A stretch of DNA of 64,000 nt from Flammeovirga sp. SJP92. Lineage in GTDB: Bacteria > Bacteroidota > Bacteroidia > Cytophagales > Flammeovirgaceae. The stretch covers positions 248,001 to 312,000 of the forward strand of contig NZ_LQAQ01000015.1 of NCBI RefSeq assembly GCF_001583495.1. Reading direction: 5' to 3'. The position numbers and the translations under genes were made by a program. Positions 35,680-48,462 of the stretch are shown in pieces. Every line of letters begins with the position of its first letter. Position 1 is the stretch's first letter. The notes under the pieces are model-generated. The model was not told the origin of the DNA. It was given only the letters and a program-made list of their open reading frames with translations, and did no database searches.

Positions 35680-35842
35680 CGGTGATCGGAATGCGGAAGT
35701 ATTTTTCAATTTCAGTTGGTTTAATTGTCGAAAAATAATGACCTCTACTTAATATGATTTCTTTGGTCATCTTGTTTGTTGTAATAGTTAACTGCGAATA
35801 TAGACGTTTTAATTTTAAGGAACAGTCCATTGAACACAAAAA

Positions 35843-35871
35843 AAGAGCTAAACCTTAACAGCTTAGCTCTT
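35843..35871 (-). terminator. Terminator after the glycyl-radical-enzyme operon
   Basis: AAGAGCTAA (35843-35851) pairs with TTAGCTCTT (35863-35871), followed on the minus strand by six or more T. It lies 23 bases beyond the GH47 stop. Confidence 0.82.
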
Positions 35872-35893
35872 CCATTGATTAGAAAATAAAGGG

Positions 35894-37348
35894 TTATTTC
35901 AAACCAATTTTATTTCCTTTCCATCCTTTATCCCAAGTATTTTTTAATGGGTGTGCTTCCGTATTCAACACATATTTTTCTAAGTCAAATACTTCTGATG
36001 GAGCGAAGAATAAGTAACAATATTTCATGGTTTCCGCAAAGAAGAAACTTTCCAAAGTATCCCATTTCTCTTTTGTCTTCACATCTTTCAGCTGAACATA
36101 ACCATTTTCAACTTGGCAGTACTTTTCAATGCTTTCAAACATCTTCTTGCCTTGCTCATAGTATTTGTCATTGCCAGTACCTCTCCATACATAATAAGTA
36201 GACTCAATTGCCTCTGGTCTCATCATATAGTATTCAGCTCCTTCATAAAATGGTTGCATTGTAGTATAATCTACAGCCTCTGGCTCAATGCCGTCTTTGA
36301 ACCACATTTTATTGATAGATGCTTGTAACTTTTCGGCTCTGTCTAAATCGCCATCCAATACATAACATAAATTCCAGAAACAATCCAATGCACCGAATCG
36401 AGTACTCAATCTTTCCCCCGAATTCATATCTGCCCAACCAATCCAGAACTCACCATCTACAGAAGTTGTATCGACTAAATATTTGTTGACTGCATCTCTT
36501 GAAACGTTGTACCACTCCAATAAGTCTTCATCACCAAACAACAAATAACCCTTTAATAAGTACTCATAGTAAGCATCAATACCTCCTGAGATATGAGCTC
36601 TTGTGTCTGCCCATTCTCCTGTATCTTGATCAATCCACGAACCTTGCAATCCTGTCTTACCTCTTCGATCATAAGAAGCTTTGATACCTCTTTTACACAA
36701 TTCATAGTATTTATCATCTCCCGTCAATTTCGATAAAACACCATATTCCAATAGCATTGAACCAATTTCACATGGGTTTGTGCCCTGACCACTTACTTTA
36801 CCTGTACGAAGGTTTACCAAACGGTAAGGAATTCCAGTAGGTGAATCAAAAACAGGAATCATTCTATCACCAAGGTCTTTGGCTAACTCTAAGAATCTAG
36901 GATCACCATCCAATTGGTATGAAGAAAGTAAACCGCCTAAAATTCGAATTGCAATTTCAAATTGTTGTACGTCTAAATCTTTATCAAAATCTAATTCAGA
37001 GAAAATTAAATCCTTACATTCTTTCATTTCCTCTTCTAATCCCATTAAGTACATGGTAGAAAAAGCATCTACAGGCGTCATTAATAGCGACTCTGCATAC
37101 CAATTATGCCCTTTTTCTGATATAGGGTTCACCGCATCTAATCCTTTTGCATAATTCATATAGGCTCTCCACCCTTTTTTAAATGCCGTTTTAACTCTCT
37201 CTTGGTATTGCTGTTTCTCCTTTGATGAAATTTCCTCTGTAACTGTTTCTTTTGAAACACTAGTAGCAGTTGTACATGAAGTTCCTAAAAGTGTAGTTGA
37301 TGCCACTAAAATTGAGGCTACTAATGATTTTTTGATGGTAGTTTTCAT
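35894..37348 (-). CDS. GH47-type alpha-mannosidase-like lipoprotein
   Basis: A 484-residue lipoprotein: signal peptide with lipobox LLGTSC near residue 25, then an (alpha/alpha)7-barrel like glycoside hydrolase family 47. Typical segments are AESLLMTPVDAFSTMYLMGL near 88-107, EIAIRILGGLLSSYQL near 132-147 and the late ESFFFAETMKYCYLFF near 438-453. GH47 enzymes remove alpha-1,2-mannose with inversion and calcium. It lies 51 bases after the cupin gene and before the terminator, so it belongs to the glycyl radical operon. Relatives acting on other sugars are possible, because bacterial members are little studied. Confidence 0.85.
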   Translation of the reverse strand: MKTTIKKSLVASILVASTTLLGTSCTTATSVSKETVTEEISSKEKQQYQERVKTAFKKGWRAYMNYAKGLDAVNPISEKGHNWYAESLLMTPVDAFSTMYLMGLEEEMKECKDLIFSELDFDKDLDVQQFEIAIRILGGLLSSYQLDGDPRFLELAKDLGDRMIPVFDSPTGIPYRLVNLRTGKVSGQGTNPCEIGSMLLEYGVLSKLTGDDKYYELCKRGIKASYDRRGKTGLQGSWIDQDTGEWADTRAHISGGIDAYYEYLLKGYLLFGDEDLLEWYNVSRDAVNKYLVDTTSVDGEFWIGWADMNSGERLSTRFGALDCFWNLCYVLDGDLDRAEKLQASINKMWFKDGIEPEAVDYTTMQPFYEGAEYYMMRPEAIESTYYVWRGTGNDKYYEQGKKMFESIEKYCQVENGYVQLKDVKTKEKWDTLESFFFAETMKYCYLFFAPSEVFDLEKYVLNTEAHPLKNTWDKGWKGNKIGLK

Positions 37349-37399
37349 TTTCCTTACTTGATAATGGTTATAATAAGTACGAGTACTTAAGTAGATAAT

Positions 37400-37813
37400 T
37401 TATTTCCAAATTTTATTGATCTCATTTAAGAATTGAGCTTCTTGTGATGCATTAAAATCATAAAACTCAAAGTCACCCAAATGTGTGTTATCTTTTTCAA
37501 TAATTAAGACTTTTGCCCCTTCTTGCAATGCGATGGTATGCCATACATTTTTAGGAATATTATAGGTCACACCTTCTTTCATCTCTTCCATATCATAATG
37601 GATACTATCATTTTCGATAGAAGCGGCTACCAAAATTGCTTTTCCTGTTATTAATAAGAAAGCTTCATCCGTTTGGTAATGAATATCCAATTTTTTGATA
37701 TTCTCGGGCTTTGCTCCTTCTGAATAATTCAATTGAGCTACTTGCCAACCTTCTCGAATCAGGAAAGGATTATAACCTTCTGATTCGTGTGTATATCTTT
37801 CTGTAATATTCAT
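37400..37813 (-). CDS. Small cupin-domain protein
   Basis: A 137-residue single-cupin protein. The first cupin strand region HYQTDEAFLLITGKAILV near 44-61 and the second, NIPKNVWHTIALQEGAKVLI near 85-104, give the His/Glu/His positions expected of a metal site, although one ligand is unclear. Cupins of this size often act as sugar isomerases, dioxygenases or ligand sensors. The gene starts 2 bases after the glycyl radical enzyme stop, so the two are made together. Its role with that enzyme is not known. Confidence 0.75.
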   Translation of the reverse strand: MNITERYTHESEGYNPFLIREGWQVAQLNYSEGAKPENIKKLDIHYQTDEAFLLITGKAILVAASIENDSIHYDMEEMKEGVTYNIPKNVWHTIALQEGAKVLIIEKDNTHLGDFEFYDFNASQEAQFLNEINKIWK

Positions 37814-37815
37814 AC

Positions 37816-39969
37816 TTAATTCTCTAATATTCTGTCTACAACAAGCTGTCTAAACTCTTTAGAAAGCATCGCAAAATAAGCGGTAAAACCTGTAATTCTC
37901 ACCACTAAATCAGGATATAGATCAGGATTTTCGTGTGCGGCCAATACTTGTTCTTTATCCATAATATTCACATTGATCAGAGTTCCTCCCAATTCAAAGT
38001 GGGTTTTAATAATAGCACCTATGATCTCTGCGTGTTCTTCTTTGGCTAAAGATGGATCCAATTCCCATTGCATTGGAGCCGTATTTCCATACCCCGGTTG
38101 CACTTTGGCAATTGCTGACGCTAAAGCGAGTGAGCCTCCATCCACTACAAAACCAGGTGTAGGGTTCGCTCCATGATTGATTGGCTCTCCTCCTTTTCTT
38201 CCGTTTGGAGTTGCTTTTACTTTTTTGCCAAGACCGACGGTATTGGCCCAAGAGAAAAGCCCTGGAATAAAGCAATGGTTTTGCTCTGCATCTGATTCAT
38301 TTTTAACTAAGGCTGAAAAATGTTCTGCAATTAAACTTGCCCATTTGTCACCTTTGGTGTCTCCCTGCCCATATCTTTCACTGTTTTGAAGCAATGTTCG
38401 AATTCTCTCCCCATTTTCATCTTCAAAATTAGAATTGAGATGAGATTGTAAATCTTCCCAACTCAAACGCTTTTCTTCTTCAATTCTTTGCTCAATAGCT
38501 GCAAATGAATCGGCAACAATTGCTATTCCAGCTCCATCAATGGAGAGGTTATAATACATTGCACCACCATCACTGACATCTCTCCCTTTTTCCAAAGGTC
38601 CGTAAGACAATAAATTCAGAATCAGTTCAGGCTCGTTGTATTTTTGATACTTCAAATGATGCTTAATTCCATCAGCCGCCGTAGTTACCGCTTTGGCTAA
38701 ATGAGCTGTAAATTTACCCCAAAGTTCAGCAGTACTTTTGACTTCTGAAGTTGCCATTATTTCCTCAAAAGCCACCTCAAATACTTTAGCCATATTGACT
38801 TTCACAAGGTCATTCATGGTATATTCCAAACCCGGCAAAGACATCCAATTACATCCCACTGCAATTCTTTTTCTTGCTAACTCTTCTGAATATCCATTTT
38901 TCATAAAGCCACTAATCAATCCTTTGTCCCCTGAAAAACGTGGCCAGGCATTTTTATGCTTAATCAAGTAGTCCAATGATCGGTCAAACAATTCTTGATT
39001 CATATGATCATGCACACGAACAGTAATGTTTAATGAGGTATTGATCTTGTCTGCTGCTTCAAGAATTAAAAAAGAAATCTCAGAAGATACATCGCCTCCA
39101 TTACCGTCAGGCCCTCCCAATTGCCAGTAAATAGGATCGTTGATTAGAAAACATGACAAATAATAAATAGCTTCTTCTTTGTCAATGATTCCATTCTTTA
39201 TATCATTTTCAAAATACGGCTGTAAAAGCGTATCAATTTGTCCACCGGCTCCATCTCGGTTGTACGTCCTTGAGGCAAGGTGGAACCAAATAATCCATTG
39301 GCAAGCTTGACGCAATGTTTTTGGTGGATGATGAAGAATAGCTCTATTGGTCTCTCGCATCTTGAGAAGGTTTTCTCTTGACAAAGGATCTTCTTCCTTT
39401 TGTATCATCAATGCCAACTCATCAATATGTCTTTTGATCCAACCTTGAATACTGACAATTGCTCTTTTATGGGCTTGATAAAATACTTCTTGCTCTTCTC
39501 CTTGATTTATGGCCGCAGAAGTTTCTATCTTTTTTAATAATCCACCCCAACCTAATTGCAAGCCTAATTCAAAATCAGGTGCAAAGTGAGCATCATCGCC
39601 AATGCCATGAATAATATCATACTTTTCTTGATTTGCTATAAGATGGGTAAAAGGGTACGATGGATTCCATTTGTTGGGACGCATTTTTGACATGAAATAA
39701 ATCCAGCGTCCTGCAAAAGCATCATTCCCATCAATATAAGTTGGATGGTTGTCCATCAAATCACAGAAGTTATCCGTCCAACCTTGTATGCCATAAAAAG
39801 AGCCATCACTGTGATTTGGGATAATCTCCCACCCCTTGTCAGGTACAGCAATTCTGCCATAATCATCTTCATCCAAAAGACCTTCTTTTCGAATTTTCTC
39901 CTTGGTTTGAAGTGCTTTCGCTCTTTTCAGGTTCTCAATTTTTTGTAAGTAATATTCTTTCATTTCCAT
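37816..39969 (-). CDS. Glycyl radical enzyme of the pyruvate formate-lyase superfamily, substrate unknown
   Basis: A 717-residue glycyl radical enzyme. The glycyl loop near the C-terminus reads VVRITGFTAYF with Gly694 as the radical site. The catalytic cysteine is Cys373 in AVGCNWMSLPG. Dehydratase and choline-lyase members have Cys-x-Glu (GCVEP) here; this protein has Asn-Trp-Met after the cysteine and lacks that base. It does not match pyruvate formate-lyase (two adjacent cysteines) either. The reaction is therefore unknown. The activase gene lies directly upstream and its TAA touches this ATG. Residues 1-350 form the usual N-terminal half-barrel. Oxygen sensitivity implies use under low oxygen. 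Confidence 0.88.
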   Translation of the reverse strand: MEMKEYYLQKIENLKRAKALQTKEKIRKEGLLDEDDYGRIAVPDKGWEIIPNHSDGSFYGIQGWTDNFCDLMDNHPTYIDGNDAFAGRWIYFMSKMRPNKWNPSYPFTHLIANQEKYDIIHGIGDDAHFAPDFELGLQLGWGGLLKKIETSAAINQGEEQEVFYQAHKRAIVSIQGWIKRHIDELALMIQKEEDPLSRENLLKMRETNRAILHHPPKTLRQACQWIIWFHLASRTYNRDGAGGQIDTLLQPYFENDIKNGIIDKEEAIYYLSCFLINDPIYWQLGGPDGNGGDVSSEISFLILEAADKINTSLNITVRVHDHMNQELFDRSLDYLIKHKNAWPRFSGDKGLISGFMKNGYSEELARKRIAVGCNWMSLPGLEYTMNDLVKVNMAKVFEVAFEEIMATSEVKSTAELWGKFTAHLAKAVTTAADGIKHHLKYQKYNEPELILNLLSYGPLEKGRDVSDGGAMYYNLSIDGAGIAIVADSFAAIEQRIEEEKRLSWEDLQSHLNSNFEDENGERIRTLLQNSERYGQGDTKGDKWASLIAEHFSALVKNESDAEQNHCFIPGLFSWANTVGLGKKVKATPNGRKGGEPINHGANPTPGFVVDGGSLALASAIAKVQPGYGNTAPMQWELDPSLAKEEHAEIIGAIIKTHFELGGTLINVNIMDKEQVLAAHENPDLYPDLVVRITGFTAYFAMLSKEFRQLVVDRILEN

Positions 39970-40854
39970 TTATTTCTTTATCAAACTAGACCAATATTGG
40001 AACTCAGAATGACTCATTTCATTTATGTGTGCTAGGTTATATTCCAAACCCAAGTTTTTATATTTCTGCTCCCCTAGTTTATGATAAGGATTGAGCTTAA
40101 ACTGCTTACAGTTAGAAAGCTGATTGACAAAATCATTGATGGCAACAAGCTCTTCTTTAATGTTATTGGCAGTAGGTATTAAAGGAGTTCTTAATTCATA
40201 ACTCACTTTTTGATTATCCAACAGTGTAATGTTAGACAACACTTTTTGATTATCTGTAAAGGTCCATTTTTTATGTTTCTCTGCATTGATAAACTTCAAG
40301 TCTACTAACCAATGATCTACATAAGGCAGGAATTTCGAAATAATATTCCAAGAAACATTGAAGTTGGACTCTACAGCAATATTCAAGTCTTTTGATTTGA
40401 AATATTGAATAACCTCCATTAAAAATTGGTGCTGCAGTAGAGGTTCTCCACCCGAAAAAGTTACTCCTCCATCAGAAAATTTAAAAAAGGGGACATCTTT
40501 TTCAATGGCTTTGTAGAGTGATTCCGACGTGTGCATTTCACCAACTTGATGCATAGCACCAGAATAACAAACCGGTATACAATCTCCATTTTGAGTACAC
40601 GATTTGGCATTATAGTGTACCTTACCGTTGTACATTGACAATGCTCCAGAACCACAAACTTCTACACATGCTCCACAAGAAATACATTTCTGATCAATTC
40701 TTTCTATTTGAACTTTTTGGGAAAAGGTTTCAGGGTTATGGCACCACAAACATCTCATATTACACCCTTTCAAGAAGATTACAGTACGAATACCATTACC
40801 ATCATGTAAAGAAAGCCGTTGTAAATTTGTAATCATTCCTTTTTCCAAAATCAT
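39970..40854 (-). CDS. Glycyl radical enzyme activating enzyme (radical SAM)
   Basis: A 294-residue activase that makes the glycyl radical on its partner. The radical SAM motif is C31, C35 and C38 in GCNMRCLWCHNP, with NGIRTVIFLKG before it. A ferredoxin-like insert holds C57, C60, C63 and C67, then C86, C92 and C96. The position that would complete the second 4Fe-4S set is Asn89, so that cluster may be differently ligated. GGEPLLQ near 141 binds SAM. The ATG at 40854 is used; a TTG at 40869 is possible. The stop touches the enzyme's start codon. Confidence 0.9.
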   Translation of the reverse strand: MILEKGMITNLQRLSLHDGNGIRTVIFLKGCNMRCLWCHNPETFSQKVQIERIDQKCISCGACVEVCGSGALSMYNGKVHYNAKSCTQNGDCIPVCYSGAMHQVGEMHTSESLYKAIEKDVPFFKFSDGGVTFSGGEPLLQHQFLMEVIQYFKSKDLNIAVESNFNVSWNIISKFLPYVDHWLVDLKFINAEKHKKWTFTDNQKVLSNITLLDNQKVSYELRTPLIPTANNIKEELVAINDFVNQLSNCKQFKLNPYHKLGEQKYKNLGLEYNLAHINEMSHSEFQYWSSLIKK

Positions 40855-41001: not shown

Positions 41002-41023
41002 AAGGCTACCCATCGGCAGCCTT
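41002..41023 (-). terminator. Terminator after the PUL regulator gene
   Basis: AAGGCTACC (41002-41010) and GGCAGCCTT (41015-41023) form a 9-bp stem on the minus strand with one G-U pair and T-rich sequence beyond it. It separates the regulator from the glycyl radical operon. Confidence 0.75.
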
Positions 41024-44772: not shown

Positions 44773-47700
44773 TTATTGTTTTATAATTTTGATAGTCTTG
44801 GACTTATCCTTCCCAGTCAGTTGAACCAAGTAGATACCATCTTGAAGATCACTGATATCTAAGTGGTATGATTGAACTTCTTCCAATTGCATTTTGCCTT
44901 TAATTTGCCCATCCAAATTGAATACTTCCAACAAGTGGAATTGACCGTCTAAACCTGATAGATGCACAACATTGTGTGATGGATTAGGATAAGCTAACAC
45001 TTCAATTTCATCATGAAGCGATTGCTGTGTGTTAACTACCTTTCTATTATTTGAATTTTCAGGTACAATTTCTATCCAATCAATGTTAAAAGGTCCCACA
45101 GGGAAATGAATTCGAAATGTTTGAACTCCTTTAGTGAGGTAAGCAGAATGAGCTACCGATTGGTAGGTGTTCCACCCTCCTGTATTTGGAACATCAGCAC
45201 TTCCATACACTGGCGTTCCATTATCTCCTTCCAACTGAACTTTTCCTCCACTATACGGACTTGATACATGATATGAAATCGTATAATTTCCGCTTGCAGT
45301 AATATTCACATTTTCGAAAGATAACCAATCACCAGCATCGATATATCCTACGACATTGCCTCCAACTTCAATACCGCTCATTGAAGTGTAATTTTCTGCT
45401 TCCAAACGAAGGGATGAACCTATCGGATTGCCACCATCATTGTCCCCGTTACCTCCATTATTGTCCAGTCCATAATCATAGCTCAACATAATTTCTTTGG
45501 CAAAAGTACCTGATGCGGTAAGGTTTGACCAACCACCTGTACTCGAAGCTCCAGAGTTTAAGTAAGAAGCCCCTTCAACTTTATCATGAAGTGACCATTT
45601 ACAGTGTGAAATAGCATTAGCTTTCATCCAGTCTACCCAAGCTTGAGCTTCTGTGTAATTCACACCTCCATCGCCATTTGCGTTCACTGATCCCCACTCA
45701 GTAACAAACAATGCAATTCCTTTTGACAAAGCATAATTTCCTTTATCTCTAAGGTATTGACCATGAGTTCCTGCATAAAAATGAAGCGTATAAGCGATAT
45801 TGGATTGATTGATGGGATCATTTGCCGCCTGATCCACATCTTGCGACCAAGTCGGTGTACCTACAACGATGATATTATCAGGATCATACTGACGTATTGA
45901 TGCAATAATTGACTCCGCATAAGGCTTGATTCCTGAAGACCATGAAATTTGTAAAGGCTCATTATAAATTTCATAAATGACGTTATCATATTGTCCGTAT
46001 TTCTGTGCCATTTCTCCAAAAAAACTAGCTGCTCTTGACCAGTCATGTTCGTTGGCATGATGTGAATGCCAGTCAATGATCACATACATATCATTATCAA
46101 TGGCTGCGTTTACCACCGTTTCTACCCTAGCTTTGTTACCGGCTGGATCTTCAAAATAACCTCCTGGATCTTCTACACCCATTGCCGCTCTAATAATACC
46201 AGCATTCCAATCTTGTTTTGTCCAAGAAACTACATCTGCATTATAGAACCTCTCAGCACCCCAGCCTGTGTTTGACCAGAAGTAACTTGGCCCCGCAAAA
46301 CTCACTGGTTGCCCCTCTTTATTCACAATCTTATTGCCACTTACTTGCAGCAGACCATTTTTAGAAACTACAAAACCGCCATTACCTCCTCCATTGTTTT
46401 CATTGACAGTAACTACAGTGGAATCAACAATACCATTCACCGTTGCAGTTACTATATATTCTCCTAAAGCTTCTGCCTTGAATACACCATTGGGTGCATT
46501 CGATGACCATACTATTGCCGCTACAAGATCATTTTCACAATTGTCTTTTACCAAAGCACTCAACTGAATTGAATCGTTTAAAAATAAAGTAGTATTAGAA
46601 GGTGAAATAGAAAATAAAGTGTCTGTTGGAATACACGGCACTTCTTCTATGAACTCTAAATAATTTACATTAATACCACCTGTAGAAGTAGACAATGCCA
46701 TTTCAAAATTTCCAGAAGGTAAAGTCACTGTTTCTGTGATATCTTGCCAAGTCTGCCAACCGCCTGTAGAAGGCACATTTAAGGTCGCCACTGTGTTCCC
46801 ATTCACATCAAAAGACACATTGCCACCATTTAACGAAGCCATTCGCAACTTCAAAGTATAATCACCGGCGTTAACCGCTGTCACATTGTATTTTACCCAG
46901 TCTCCAGCATCAAACCAGCCTACGTTTTCACCTCCACCTATATCAGTGGTTGTTTCTGTCTGAATGCCAGACATTGAAGCATAATTTTCGGCTTCTATTT
47001 TTCCGGGAATAACACCAAGTCCTCCATCGTTTTCTTCCACCGGAGTAATTGAAATCCAATTAATATTTACTCCTCCAATTAATGCATAGATACCAATATT
47101 CTGTTCACCTGCTGTCTCAAAATTTACTTCAAGATCAATAGTTTCCCAATACTGCCATCCACCAGTATTCGGTATATCTATTGTTCCTAGAACATTATTC
47201 CCTTCATATTGATCTATTCTCAGTCGGCTTCCTCCACCTTCAGAAGCTACCCTTAATTCTACTTTATAGTTCCCTGCTTCTGGGACATTGATGGTGTATT
47301 CCAACCAATCTCCATCATCAACATATCTTACATTTTCACCACCATTTGTGTCAGTTGTAGTTTCTGTTTGAACACCTAGTGCCTTGCAAAAGGCTTCTGC
47401 TTCAATAGTTCCAGGCAAAGTTACTGTTTCACAATTTCCTGTGATAATGTTTTCTTCTGAAGATCCCCCATCATTTCCTGCATACGATAATATAATTTCC
47501 TTTGCCAAAGTTCCTGATGGAGTCAGACTAGACCAACCACCAGTTGTTGAGGCACCTGGATATAATGCCGACGCACCTTCTTCTTTATCGTTGAGAGACC
47601 AGTTACAATGTGAAATACTATTGGCTTTCATCCATTCTACCCACGCTGATGTTTCATCATAATTGACACCGCCATCACCATTTGCATTCACAGACCCCCA

Positions 47701-48462
47701 TTCTGTCACAAAAAGTGCTACTCCTTTTGACAAGGCATAATTTCCTTTGTCTCTTAAATATTGACCATGAGTTCCAGCATAAAAATGTAGAGTATAAGCA
47801 ATATTCGGTTGATTAATGGGATCATTTGCTGCTTGATCCACATCTTGAGACCATGTTGGCGTACCTACAATAATAATATTATCTGGATCATGTTTACGGA
47901 TAGCTGTAATGATAGACTCCGCGTAAGGTTTAATAGCAGAAGACCAAGAAACCTGCAATGGTTCATTGTAGATTTCATAAAGCACATTATCAAGGTGCCC
48001 GTATTTTTGTGCCATTTCTTCAAAGAAAGCGGAAGCTTTTGCCCAATCGTGTTCATGGGCATGATGAGAGTGCCAGTCTATGATAACATACATATCATTG
48101 GCCACTGCTGCGTTTACTATTGTTTCGATTTTTGCTTTGTTACTAAATGGCTCACTAAAATAGCCTCCATCAGCTTCAACACCCATTGCGGCTCTAATAA
48201 TTCCGGCGTTCCAATCCAGTTTCACCCAAGAAACGGCACCTTCATTATAGAATTTTTCCCCACCCCAATTGTTGTTAGACCAGAACAAGCTTGGCCCTGC
48301 AAAATTAGCGGGTTGTCCACTGCTGTTTACTATTTTATTTCCATTTACCTGAAGCAAACCATTTTGGCTTACTTGTGCTTTTGCATCGATAGTCAATCCT
48401 GAAATGCTCACCATAGCAATGCACTTCAATAGGAAGAAAAGCTTAAAATATCTCATACTCAT
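44773..48462 (-). CDS. Tandem GH5 endoglucanase with CBM6-like modules and T9SS domain
   Basis: A 1229-residue secreted multimodular enzyme. Signal peptide (1-30), GH5 module A (about 33-330; acid/base Glu167 in EIYNEP, nucleophile Glu254 in VTEWGS), CBM6-like modules (about 345-475 and 485-608), an Ig-like domain (about 612-690), GH5 module B (about 698-996; Glu835 and Glu922), a third CBM6-like module (about 1016-1138) and a T9SS type A sorting domain (about 1155-1229, LAYPNPSHNVV to the end). The modules resemble GH5 subfamily 2 endo-beta-1,4-glucanases. Two catalytic copies plus carbohydrate-binding modules suggest action on an insoluble or branched beta-glucan at the cell surface. Confidence 0.9.
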   Translation of the reverse strand: MSMRYFKLFFLLKCIAMVSISGLTIDAKAQVSQNGLLQVNGNKIVNSSGQPANFAGPSLFWSNNNWGGEKFYNEGAVSWVKLDWNAGIIRAAMGVEADGGYFSEPFSNKAKIETIVNAAVANDMYVIIDWHSHHAHEHDWAKASAFFEEMAQKYGHLDNVLYEIYNEPLQVSWSSAIKPYAESIITAIRKHDPDNIIIVGTPTWSQDVDQAANDPINQPNIAYTLHFYAGTHGQYLRDKGNYALSKGVALFVTEWGSVNANGDGGVNYDETSAWVEWMKANSISHCNWSLNDKEEGASALYPGASTTGGWSSLTPSGTLAKEIILSYAGNDGGSSEENIITGNCETVTLPGTIEAEAFCKALGVQTETTTDTNGGENVRYVDDGDWLEYTINVPEAGNYKVELRVASEGGGSRLRIDQYEGNNVLGTIDIPNTGGWQYWETIDLEVNFETAGEQNIGIYALIGGVNINWISITPVEENDGGLGVIPGKIEAENYASMSGIQTETTTDIGGGENVGWFDAGDWVKYNVTAVNAGDYTLKLRMASLNGGNVSFDVNGNTVATLNVPSTGGWQTWQDITETVTLPSGNFEMALSTSTGGINVNYLEFIEEVPCIPTDTLFSISPSNTTLFLNDSIQLSALVKDNCENDLVAAIVWSSNAPNGVFKAEALGEYIVTATVNGIVDSTVVTVNENNGGGNGGFVVSKNGLLQVSGNKIVNKEGQPVSFAGPSYFWSNTGWGAERFYNADVVSWTKQDWNAGIIRAAMGVEDPGGYFEDPAGNKARVETVVNAAIDNDMYVIIDWHSHHANEHDWSRAASFFGEMAQKYGQYDNVIYEIYNEPLQISWSSGIKPYAESIIASIRQYDPDNIIVVGTPTWSQDVDQAANDPINQSNIAYTLHFYAGTHGQYLRDKGNYALSKGIALFVTEWGSVNANGDGGVNYTEAQAWVDWMKANAISHCKWSLHDKVEGASYLNSGASSTGGWSNLTASGTFAKEIMLSYDYGLDNNGGNGDNDGGNPIGSSLRLEAENYTSMSGIEVGGNVVGYIDAGDWLSFENVNITASGNYTISYHVSSPYSGGKVQLEGDNGTPVYGSADVPNTGGWNTYQSVAHSAYLTKGVQTFRIHFPVGPFNIDWIEIVPENSNNRKVVNTQQSLHDEIEVLAYPNPSHNVVHLSGLDGQFHLLEVFNLDGQIKGKMQLEEVQSYHLDISDLQDGIYLVQLTGKDKSKTIKIIKQ
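45475..46371 (-). repeat. Second copy of the GH5 module within the tandem enzyme
   Basis: This DNA encodes GH5 module B and is a diverged duplicate of 47473-48366. Long stretches are nearly identical, for example around 45779-45860 and 47768-47850, which both encode the HFYAGTHGQYLRDKGNYA region and the bases before it. Confidence 0.85.
47473..48366 (-). repeat. First copy of the GH5 module within the tandem enzyme
   Basis: Encodes GH5 module A, the partner of 45475-46371. Both copies keep the catalytic glutamates, so both are probably active. Confidence 0.85.

Follow-up and report, generated by a model that had tools for sequence, protein, structure and literature searches.

The glycyl radical enzyme (GRE) encoded in an operon of the marine bacterium Flammeovirga sp. 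SJP92, within the 64,000 nt stretch of DNA analysed here (the window), belongs to a discrete and distinct GRE subclass in Bacteroidota, termed GCNW after its active-site motif. The enzyme conforms to the known superfamily in its fold, its activation and its radical residues; the Cys loop, the pocket residues and the partner genes are unlike those of the characterised subclasses tested. As best explanation of the whole we propose, with a probability of about 0.4, that the GCNW enzyme performs radical chemistry on a free sugar derived from alpha-mannosides, with a cupin handling the substrate form or the product. Some of the most difficult reactions of anaerobic metabolism are carried out by GREs, among which a glutamate two residues past the radical cysteine marks the eliminases. 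A conserved family of rumen, gut and marine Bacteroidota that has tryptophan at that place, along with a cupin and frequently alpha-mannosidases as neighbours, points towards a sugar chemistry with a testable substrate. No description of such a family was found in the titles and abstract beginnings of the open-licence literature, an earlier description elsewhere being possible.

The genes for the activase, the GRE, the cupin and a GH47 mannosidase form a tight minus-strand operon (40854–35894) in a genome of 8.49 Mb (Table 1). The activase stop codon TAA abuts the ATG of the GRE gene, two bases separate the GRE stop from the cupin gene and 51 bases lie between the cupin stop and the GH47 start. 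All the structural statements of the original prediction, i.e., four closely spaced genes with these junctions and a terminator at the end, were thus reproduced, as were the positions of Cys373 in GCNWMSLPG and of Gly694 in a proper glycyl loop (RITGF). The activase scored 295 bits on TIGR02494 (cut-off 174.35); its ORF extends to 40869 from a TTG, the likely start being the ATG at 40854. Upstream, a regulator gene of the Reg_prop/Y_Y_Y type with a LuxR-type HTH (Pfam) is parted from the operon by a hairpin (41023–41002, minus strand), and transcription of the operon probably starts between this hairpin and 40854. Since the terminator scan returned four candidate sites and shuffled sequences gave 3.1 on average, only the placement of the hairpins is informative.

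Table 1. Features of the GRE operon and its borders, in window coordinates.
Feature	Position (nt)	Strand	Basis
Activase, radical SAM, with extra 4Fe-4S ferredoxin motifs	39970..40854	-	TIGR02494; Radical_SAM and Fer4 domains
GRE, 717 aa, GCNW subclass	37816..39969	-	PF02901 and PF01228
Cys373 codon, active site, GCNWMSLPG	38851..38853	-	Alignment with glycerol dehydratase Cys433/Glu435
Gly694 codon, radical-storing glycine, RITGF	37888..37890	-	Gly_radical domain; conservation
Cupin, single-domain, 137 aa	37400..37813	-	Predicted fold; 3d0j match
GH47 exo-alpha-mannosidase	35894..37348	-	PF01532; aligned to 4ayo and mammalian alpha-1,2-mannosidase
Terminator-like hairpin at operon end, 3' of GH47	35841..35873	-	Terminator scan
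Terminator-like hairpin 3' of upstream regulator gene	41002..41023	-	Terminator scan

Membership of the GRE superfamily is supported by the PFL-like (PF02901, 339 bits) and Gly_radical (PF01228, 46.5 bits, cut-off 22.2) domains, the R[IV]TGF loop with Gly694, Cys373 in the Cys loop and the nearby radical SAM activase; Gly694 is invariant in 30 GCNW family members and in all 11 reference GREs. The Cys loop is where the family departs. The CXE motif in this loop is given as the mark of GRE eliminases (dehydratases, lyases) in PMC7077986, and these enzymes carry GCxE. All 35 non-redundant sequences reaching the site read GCNW, Asn-Trp standing at residues 374–375 in place of x-Glu. Absence of the glutamate is not unique to the family: GCVVP and GCIQP occur in two further references, neither of them characterised.

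No NCBIfam cut-off was reached by the three GCNW members scanned. The best score of the window GRE was obtained with the broad PFL2-3 subfamily model TIGR01774 (276.5 bits, cut-off 678.2), followed, among models of characterised enzymes, by the PflD-type lyase NF007437 (205.3 of 1109 bits); the two further members scored 258 and 270 bits on the former and 197–211 bits on the latter. On the models for HypD, CutC, HpsG/HpfG and the indoleacetate and hydroxyphenylacetate decarboxylases the window GRE reached at most 187 bits, with cut-offs of at least 1000. Positive controls, run for HypD, CutC and HpfG only, passed on their own models (HpfG type 1696, CutC 1675, HypD 1513 bits): the references thus exceed 1500 bits where the window GRE has 147–187, although HypD, CutC and sulfopropanediol dehydratase have the GRE fold and the activase type in common with it. 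YbiW scored 1409 bits on the PFL2-3 model, and two GREs falling below every equivalog still reached 605 and 708 bits, which makes the GCNW family an outlier even in comparison with non-equivalog GREs. The benzylsuccinate and alkylsuccinate synthases gave weaker sequence matches only (4pkc, 191 bits, profile). A diol dehydratase or HypD/CutC-type eliminase was rejected on account of the missing CXE and of scores far below cut-off. Canonical pyruvate formate-lyase shares the superfamily but is defined by a double cysteine of its own; it was rejected because of the single Cys373, with no adjacent cysteine pair, and the TIGR01255 score was 79.6 bits against a cut-off of 994.

In a maximum-likelihood tree of 45 sequences the 31 GCNW rows formed one clade (support 100/100, branch length 6.45) apart from the 14 reference and outgroup rows; the tree leaves out the fragments L018, L021, L022, L027 and L028 and a Novosphingobium reference (L081) dropped for having no open frame. 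Because long branches were flagged, the branching order among the reference GREs is unsure. There are 122 positions invariant in 30 GCNW members and absent from the 11 reference GREs, 33 of them within residues 1–120, a stretch over which the alignment of the references is poor, and 89 beyond; the best GRE profile matches to the window protein start only at about residue 124. Another 24 positions are common to all GCNW members and the reference GREs. A genome scan for close relatives returned identities of 64–98%, except for two sequences of 28–29%, and the GREs of three named Flammeovirga records are 98, 87 and 81% identical to that of the window. Among plasmid records two relatives were found at 60–80%, the others lying below 60%, and below 31% among the matches listed (60 of 137). 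The claim that no known subclass fits by eye is borne out by this separate clade together with the curated scores.

Aligned by profile, with hand-counted numbering, to glycerol dehydratase, in which C433, E435, H281/S282, H164 and D447 have substrate-contact roles, the window GRE has C373, W375, R238/D239, H128 and D387, respectively. It thus shares with B12-independent glycerol/propanediol dehydratase the radical Cys and Gly and the equivalents of His164 and Asp447, but differs from it in having Trp for Glu435 and Arg/Asp for His281/Ser282. The structure predicted from 28 sequences had a mean pLDDT of 78.7, lowest at residues 122–124, 574–578 and 596–614, and with a model of this moderate quality the roles of the pocket residues are guesses. 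An equivalence of Asp239 with the essential Asp of HypD was rejected, since the HypD Asp on that strand, presumably Asp278, aligns with Arg238; a role of Asp239 as base is for this reason likewise a guess.

Gene neighbourhoods were surveyed at 36 loci: 28 from one genome scan, from which two distant hits were dropped, plus further genomes, one plasmid and the window. Removed were the two sequences of 28–29% identity (L029 and L030) as non-members, L065, L068 and L071, which duplicate the contigs of L018, L006 and L020, L074, the same locus as L062, and a partial match in G1115. Two contigs of one MAG (L027 and L028), probably carrying one gene, count as two loci; L010 and L025 are nearly identical, and L022 and L028 end within the GRE gene. 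At loci outside the Pfam scan the neighbour families rest on tblastn similarity. All 32 loci having 1 kb or more upstream carry the activase within 1.5 kb of the GRE; of the 34 loci whose downstream flank measures 600 bases or more, 28 have the cupin no further than 300 bases away and six have none. Within 6 kb (n = 36), an AraC regulator was found at 19 loci, a RhaT-type symporter at 15, a SusC-like gene at nine, GH28 at five and a UroD-like gene at three. Restricting the count to loci with flanks of 4 kb or more upstream and 5 kb or more downstream leaves 26, of which 21 have the cupin and 15 a mannosidase. Across 28 loci and the window, the only clusters recurring in at least five loci were GRE, activase, cupin, AraC, GH92/RhaT, GH47 and SusC/SusD, with no kinase, aldolase or dehydrogenase cluster reaching that number.

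The GH47 protein of the operon (PF01532, 393 bits, cut-off 22.9) aligns over about 420 residues with 4ayo and with mammalian alpha-1,2-mannosidase, and its catalytic acidic motifs QQFEIAIR, DAYYEYL, MRPEAIE and NTEAHP align with 1nxc and 4ayo; by eye, its N-terminus is lipoprotein-like (LLGTSC). The product of an exo-alpha-mannosidase is plain mannose. An alpha-mannosidase (GH47, GH92 or GH38) stands within 3.5 kb of the GRE at 22/36 loci, a count unchanged at 6 kb and made up of GH92 at 13, GH47 at eight and GH38 at two, one locus (L023) having two kinds with a GH38 match to the C-terminal domain only. The remaining 14 loci, some with short flanks, have none within 6 kb. As GH92 copies vary from 0 to 20 per genome, proximity was compared with random placement: GH92 lies within 6 kb of the GRE in four genomes (G395, G396, G404, G852) versus 0.92 expected (n = 21, Poisson probability about 0.015), modestly above chance. 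The link with GH47 is stronger. This gene is single-copy in 9/9 Flammeovirga genomes and adjoins the GRE in all six carriers, cases that share descent and hence are not independent; it is also the sole copy and adjacent in G399, and on a Persicobacter plasmid it is adjacent but upstream of the GRE, so that the link survives rearrangement. In G761 GH47 is far from the GRE, and both GH92 and GH47 are missing from two carrier genomes, G401 and G403, which may be incomplete.

The network of GREs suggested in the original prediction, in which the enzyme should form its own cluster with recurring cupin neighbours, was thus carried out in a smaller form, as tree plus curated scores, and gave a separate clade with the cupin at most loci. 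Nor were the observations named there as fatal made: no clustering with a characterised subclass was seen, and cupin (28/34) and alpha-mannosidases (22/36, GH47 in eight) recur among the relatives.

The cupin matched no Pfam family at E 0.001 and scored 20.7 bits on the WbuC model TIGR04366 (cut-off 42); its fold was assigned from the predicted structure (pLDDT 90.9), with Clostridium CA_C3497 (3d0j), an uncharacterised protein of the same fold, as best PDB match (TM 0.79, 128 columns, 30% identity; profile match 95 bits). Residues D43, H45, D49, E50, H92 and H111 are invariant in 24/24 aligned sequences, and some of the conserved residues may bind metal; a signal peptide was not seen by eye. 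An independent site-comparison study predicted 3d0j to bind sugar moieties (PMC3892921). In Photobacterium a cupin homologue lies directly 3' of a gene matching a solved beta-1,3-oligosaccharide phosphorylase (1153 bits).

Taken together, the data suggest an optional side route, anaerobic in nature, for a sugar that stems from alpha-mannosides and carries no phosphate, D-mannose being the likeliest. The alpha-mannosides would be trimmed by exported exo-alpha-mannosidases of GH47, GH92 or GH38, and the freed monosaccharide would enter the cell unphosphorylated, often by a RhaT-type symporter; entry in this form is suggested by the symporter and by the scan of 50 neighbour proteins, in which neither PTS nor kinase families turned up. 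The activase would generate the Gly694 radical in the cytoplasm, to be transferred to Cys373, whose thiyl radical may abstract hydrogen from a hydroxyl-bearing sugar carbon, leading either to rearrangement or to the breaking of a carbon-oxygen bond, by dehydration or by opening of the ring. Arg238/Asp239, His128 and Asp387 would do the acid-base work in place of the CXE glutamate, Trp375 would line the pocket, and the cupin may present the correct substrate form or convert a reactive product. Candidates for the bond change are dehydration, isomerisation and, in analogy to PflD, an opening of the ring. The lack of a recurring kinase, aldolase or dehydrogenase cluster suits a substrate and a product that join housekeeping metabolism. 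The stricter formulation, in which a new GRE class paired with its own cupin dispenses with the CXE glutamate and acts on a hexose (mannose) in free, unphosphorylated form, is put forward only tentatively; if it were true, sugar fermentation would have a radical entry point in direct physical connection with the trimming of alpha-mannan or N-glycans. Of the original prediction, an oxygen-sensitive sugar step tied to mannose-containing glycans stands as a fair inference; its extension to sugar acids found no supporting cluster in at least five loci.

A phosphomannose-isomerase-family match (PF20511) was found in 24/24 genomes (21 with the GRE, three without), with weak E-values outside Flammeovirga (1e-10 to 1e-14). 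Replacement of the normal mannose route by the GRE was rejected on these grounds; the GRE would rather add to the standard route, and its position beside GH47 suggests an extra anaerobic route for mannose-containing sugars. The same matches would fit an alternative that we hold possible though rather unlikely, namely that the mannosidases only expose the true substrate, another sugar or polyol found together with alpha-mannosides, for instance L-rhamnose, a polyol aglycone, or mannose in O-methylated or deoxy form. The RhaT-family symporters at 15/36 loci could be read in this way, and GH28 (five loci) or the rhamnosidase-type genes of L026 would suit another sugar; a UroD-family gene occurs at three loci, and the single one scanned is similar to MtaA/CmuA methyltransferases, with a score under the cut-off. 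However, four genes scanned beside UroD at L023 and L017 matched no corrinoid-binding family (two had no Pfam match at all), and the commonest neighbour hydrolases are exo-alpha-mannosidases, which yield plain mannose.

E. coli PflD and YbiW are described as ring-opening GREs acting on 1,5-anhydromannitol-6-phosphate and 1,5-anhydroglucitol-6-phosphate (PMC12441222; PDB titles), and GCNW chemistry on a free sugar has to be weighed against the idea that the enzyme is a divergent form of a known type, e.g., a lyase for 1,5-anhydromannitol-6-phosphate like PflD or a diol dehydratase whose base has moved. Foldseek ranked PflD 8yjo first for the GRE model (E = 2.3e-31, TMq 0.81, 22% identity in the structural alignment), then HplG 7vua and then PflD 8id0, the latter with bound 1,5-anhydromannitol-6-phosphate. 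PflD and YbiW, moreover, act on sugar-type substrates and share the S-I/L-PG following the Cys motif (GCVELSIPG in PflD, GCNWMSLPG in the window GRE). On the other hand, they carry GCVE or GCIE instead of GCNW; the scores on NF007437 (205 of 1109 bits) and TIGR01774 (276 of 678 bits) and the 122 family-specific invariant positions, 89 of them beyond residue 120, speak for distance. The loci are also unlike: E. coli pflD adjoins fructose-type PTS genes, with no PTS component among the 50 neighbour proteins scanned here, and ybiW lies near an fsa aldolase gene. PflD orthology was rejected on scores and neighbours, and the broader idea of a diverged class appears improbable.

Less probable again is a radical isomerase or epimerase, in which Cys373 would take and return an aldose hydrogen, causing rearrangement and no elimination or dehydration. 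The eliminase glutamate missing from all 35 sequences would agree with it, as would the absence of a recurring downstream catabolic cluster, which is what a product that is itself an ordinary sugar would lead one to expect, but ordinary isomerases need no radicals and we know of no GRE with isomerase or epimerase activity that could serve as precedent.

Three of the nine Flammeovirga genomes lack the GRE and keep GH47. G413 is closely related (dN 0.007 and dS 0.17 for GH47 versus the window) and lacks about 3.2 kb corresponding to window positions 37423–40643, leaving a frame-broken remnant of the activase N-terminus as a deletion scar; in G412 cupin and GH47 remain and the GRE is gone; in G408 GH47 is present and GRE, activase and cupin are absent. 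The radical module is therefore dispensable and separable from the mannosidase, which in these genomes has dN/dS of 0.04–0.055 in pairs with the window. Mannose use, in turn, appears independent of the GRE, given PF20511 in 24/24 genomes and the retained GH47. Where present, the GRE is under strong purifying selection (dN/dS 0.030–0.055 in three Flammeovirga pairs with estimable dS, two of the dS values exceeding 2.4 and thus near saturation; two further pairs gave no estimate). That the sugar link is incidental or regulatory, the GRE serving some other anaerobic reaction, would accord with these losses and with the 14/36 loci having no alpha-mannosidase within 6 kb, but it is the least probable reading, in view of the tight operon and of the repeated association, across distant Bacteroidota, with AraC regulators, sugar symporters and members of three GH families. 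For the preferred reading, GCNW chemistry on a sugar from alpha-mannosides, related Flammeovirga with and without the radical module offer a ready comparison.

The cupin left in G412 (L093) carries E50K, D43E and F117L, i.e., changes at three of 29 invariant positions, against none or one in each GRE-linked cupin. Its dN/dS versus Flammeovirga cupins is 0.08–0.24, and towards the nearest relative it shows a dS of 1.85, far above the 0.42 of the neighbouring GH47; with these values, decay of the gene is no more possible than recombination or replacement.

In a phylum-wide sample of 395 genomes the GRE was detected, at E 1e-100, in the host genome only, and further family samples, centres included, gave 1/301, 4/71, 4/140 and 6/250. 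The description of the lineage as usually thought aerobic was overdrawn: a second GRE homologue occurs in 9/9 Flammeovirga genomes, and the host copy, the one in which the site motif was read, has ACCVS, the double cysteine of pyruvate formate-lyase. Several other carriers are Bacteroidales assemblies with rumen, reticulum, colon or faeces in their titles. One carrier locus recorded as Chlorobiota (L007) belongs to a genome that falls within the family of G400 (Prolixibacteraceae).

The module of the glycyl radical enzyme (GRE) with the GCNW cysteine loop was found to be plasmid-borne in two species, being carried by the Persicobacter plasmid pPP6 (locus L072) and by the F. kamogawensis plasmid p1 (L074). 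Both plasmids are large. With this location, the module may move between genomes. Gene order departs from the common pattern at locus L064, where the activase and an AraC regulator lie in divergent orientation to the GRE.

The cupin was not adjacent to the GRE in six family members (loci L007, L016, L020, L024, L026 and L070). Two genomes among these cupin-less loci (G401 and G403) lack GH92 and GH47 as well, thus a functional variant may exist. At Flammeovirga locus L093, the cupin left beside GH47 carries the substitutions E50K, D43E and F117L, and its divergence is unusually high when compared with the adjoining GH47.

A UroD-family gene was present in three of the 36 GRE neighbourhoods, the L023 copy showing likeness to MtaA/CmuA methyltransferases with a score below the cut-off. 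At loci L011 and L019, single uninterrupted frames of about 1650 aa join a RhaT-type symporter, a GH92 and a GH28-like domain (domains assigned by Pfam in L011 only), the counterparts being separate genes at L010 and L024. Two GH92 domains were contained in one further frame of about 1750 aa.

Features and their coordinates
Locus	Coordinates	Feature
L017	12578-13609	UroD-family gene near GRE
L023	8916-9944	UroD-family gene near GRE
L026	3761-4786	UroD-family gene near GRE
L073	14965-15396	Photobacterium cupin homologue, immediately after beta-1,3-oligosaccharide phosphorylase gene
L093	11038-11448	Cupin beside GH47, activase and GRE lost
L011	12564-17501	Fused frame
L019	12556-17511	Fused frame
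L064	9152-13343	Divergent gene order
L079	1404-3773	Uncharacterised GRE outside GCNW family, GCVVP or GCIQP replacing CXE (Cys-x-Glu) motif
L029	2-1966	As L079
Window	44773-48462	1229-aa protein: two GH5 (cellulase family) domains, CBM6/35-type modules, secretion tail

In the window, the GH5 gene adjoins a gene for a regulator that combines Reg_prop/Y_Y_Y domains with an HTH domain of the LuxR type. This is probably a polysaccharide locus in its own right.
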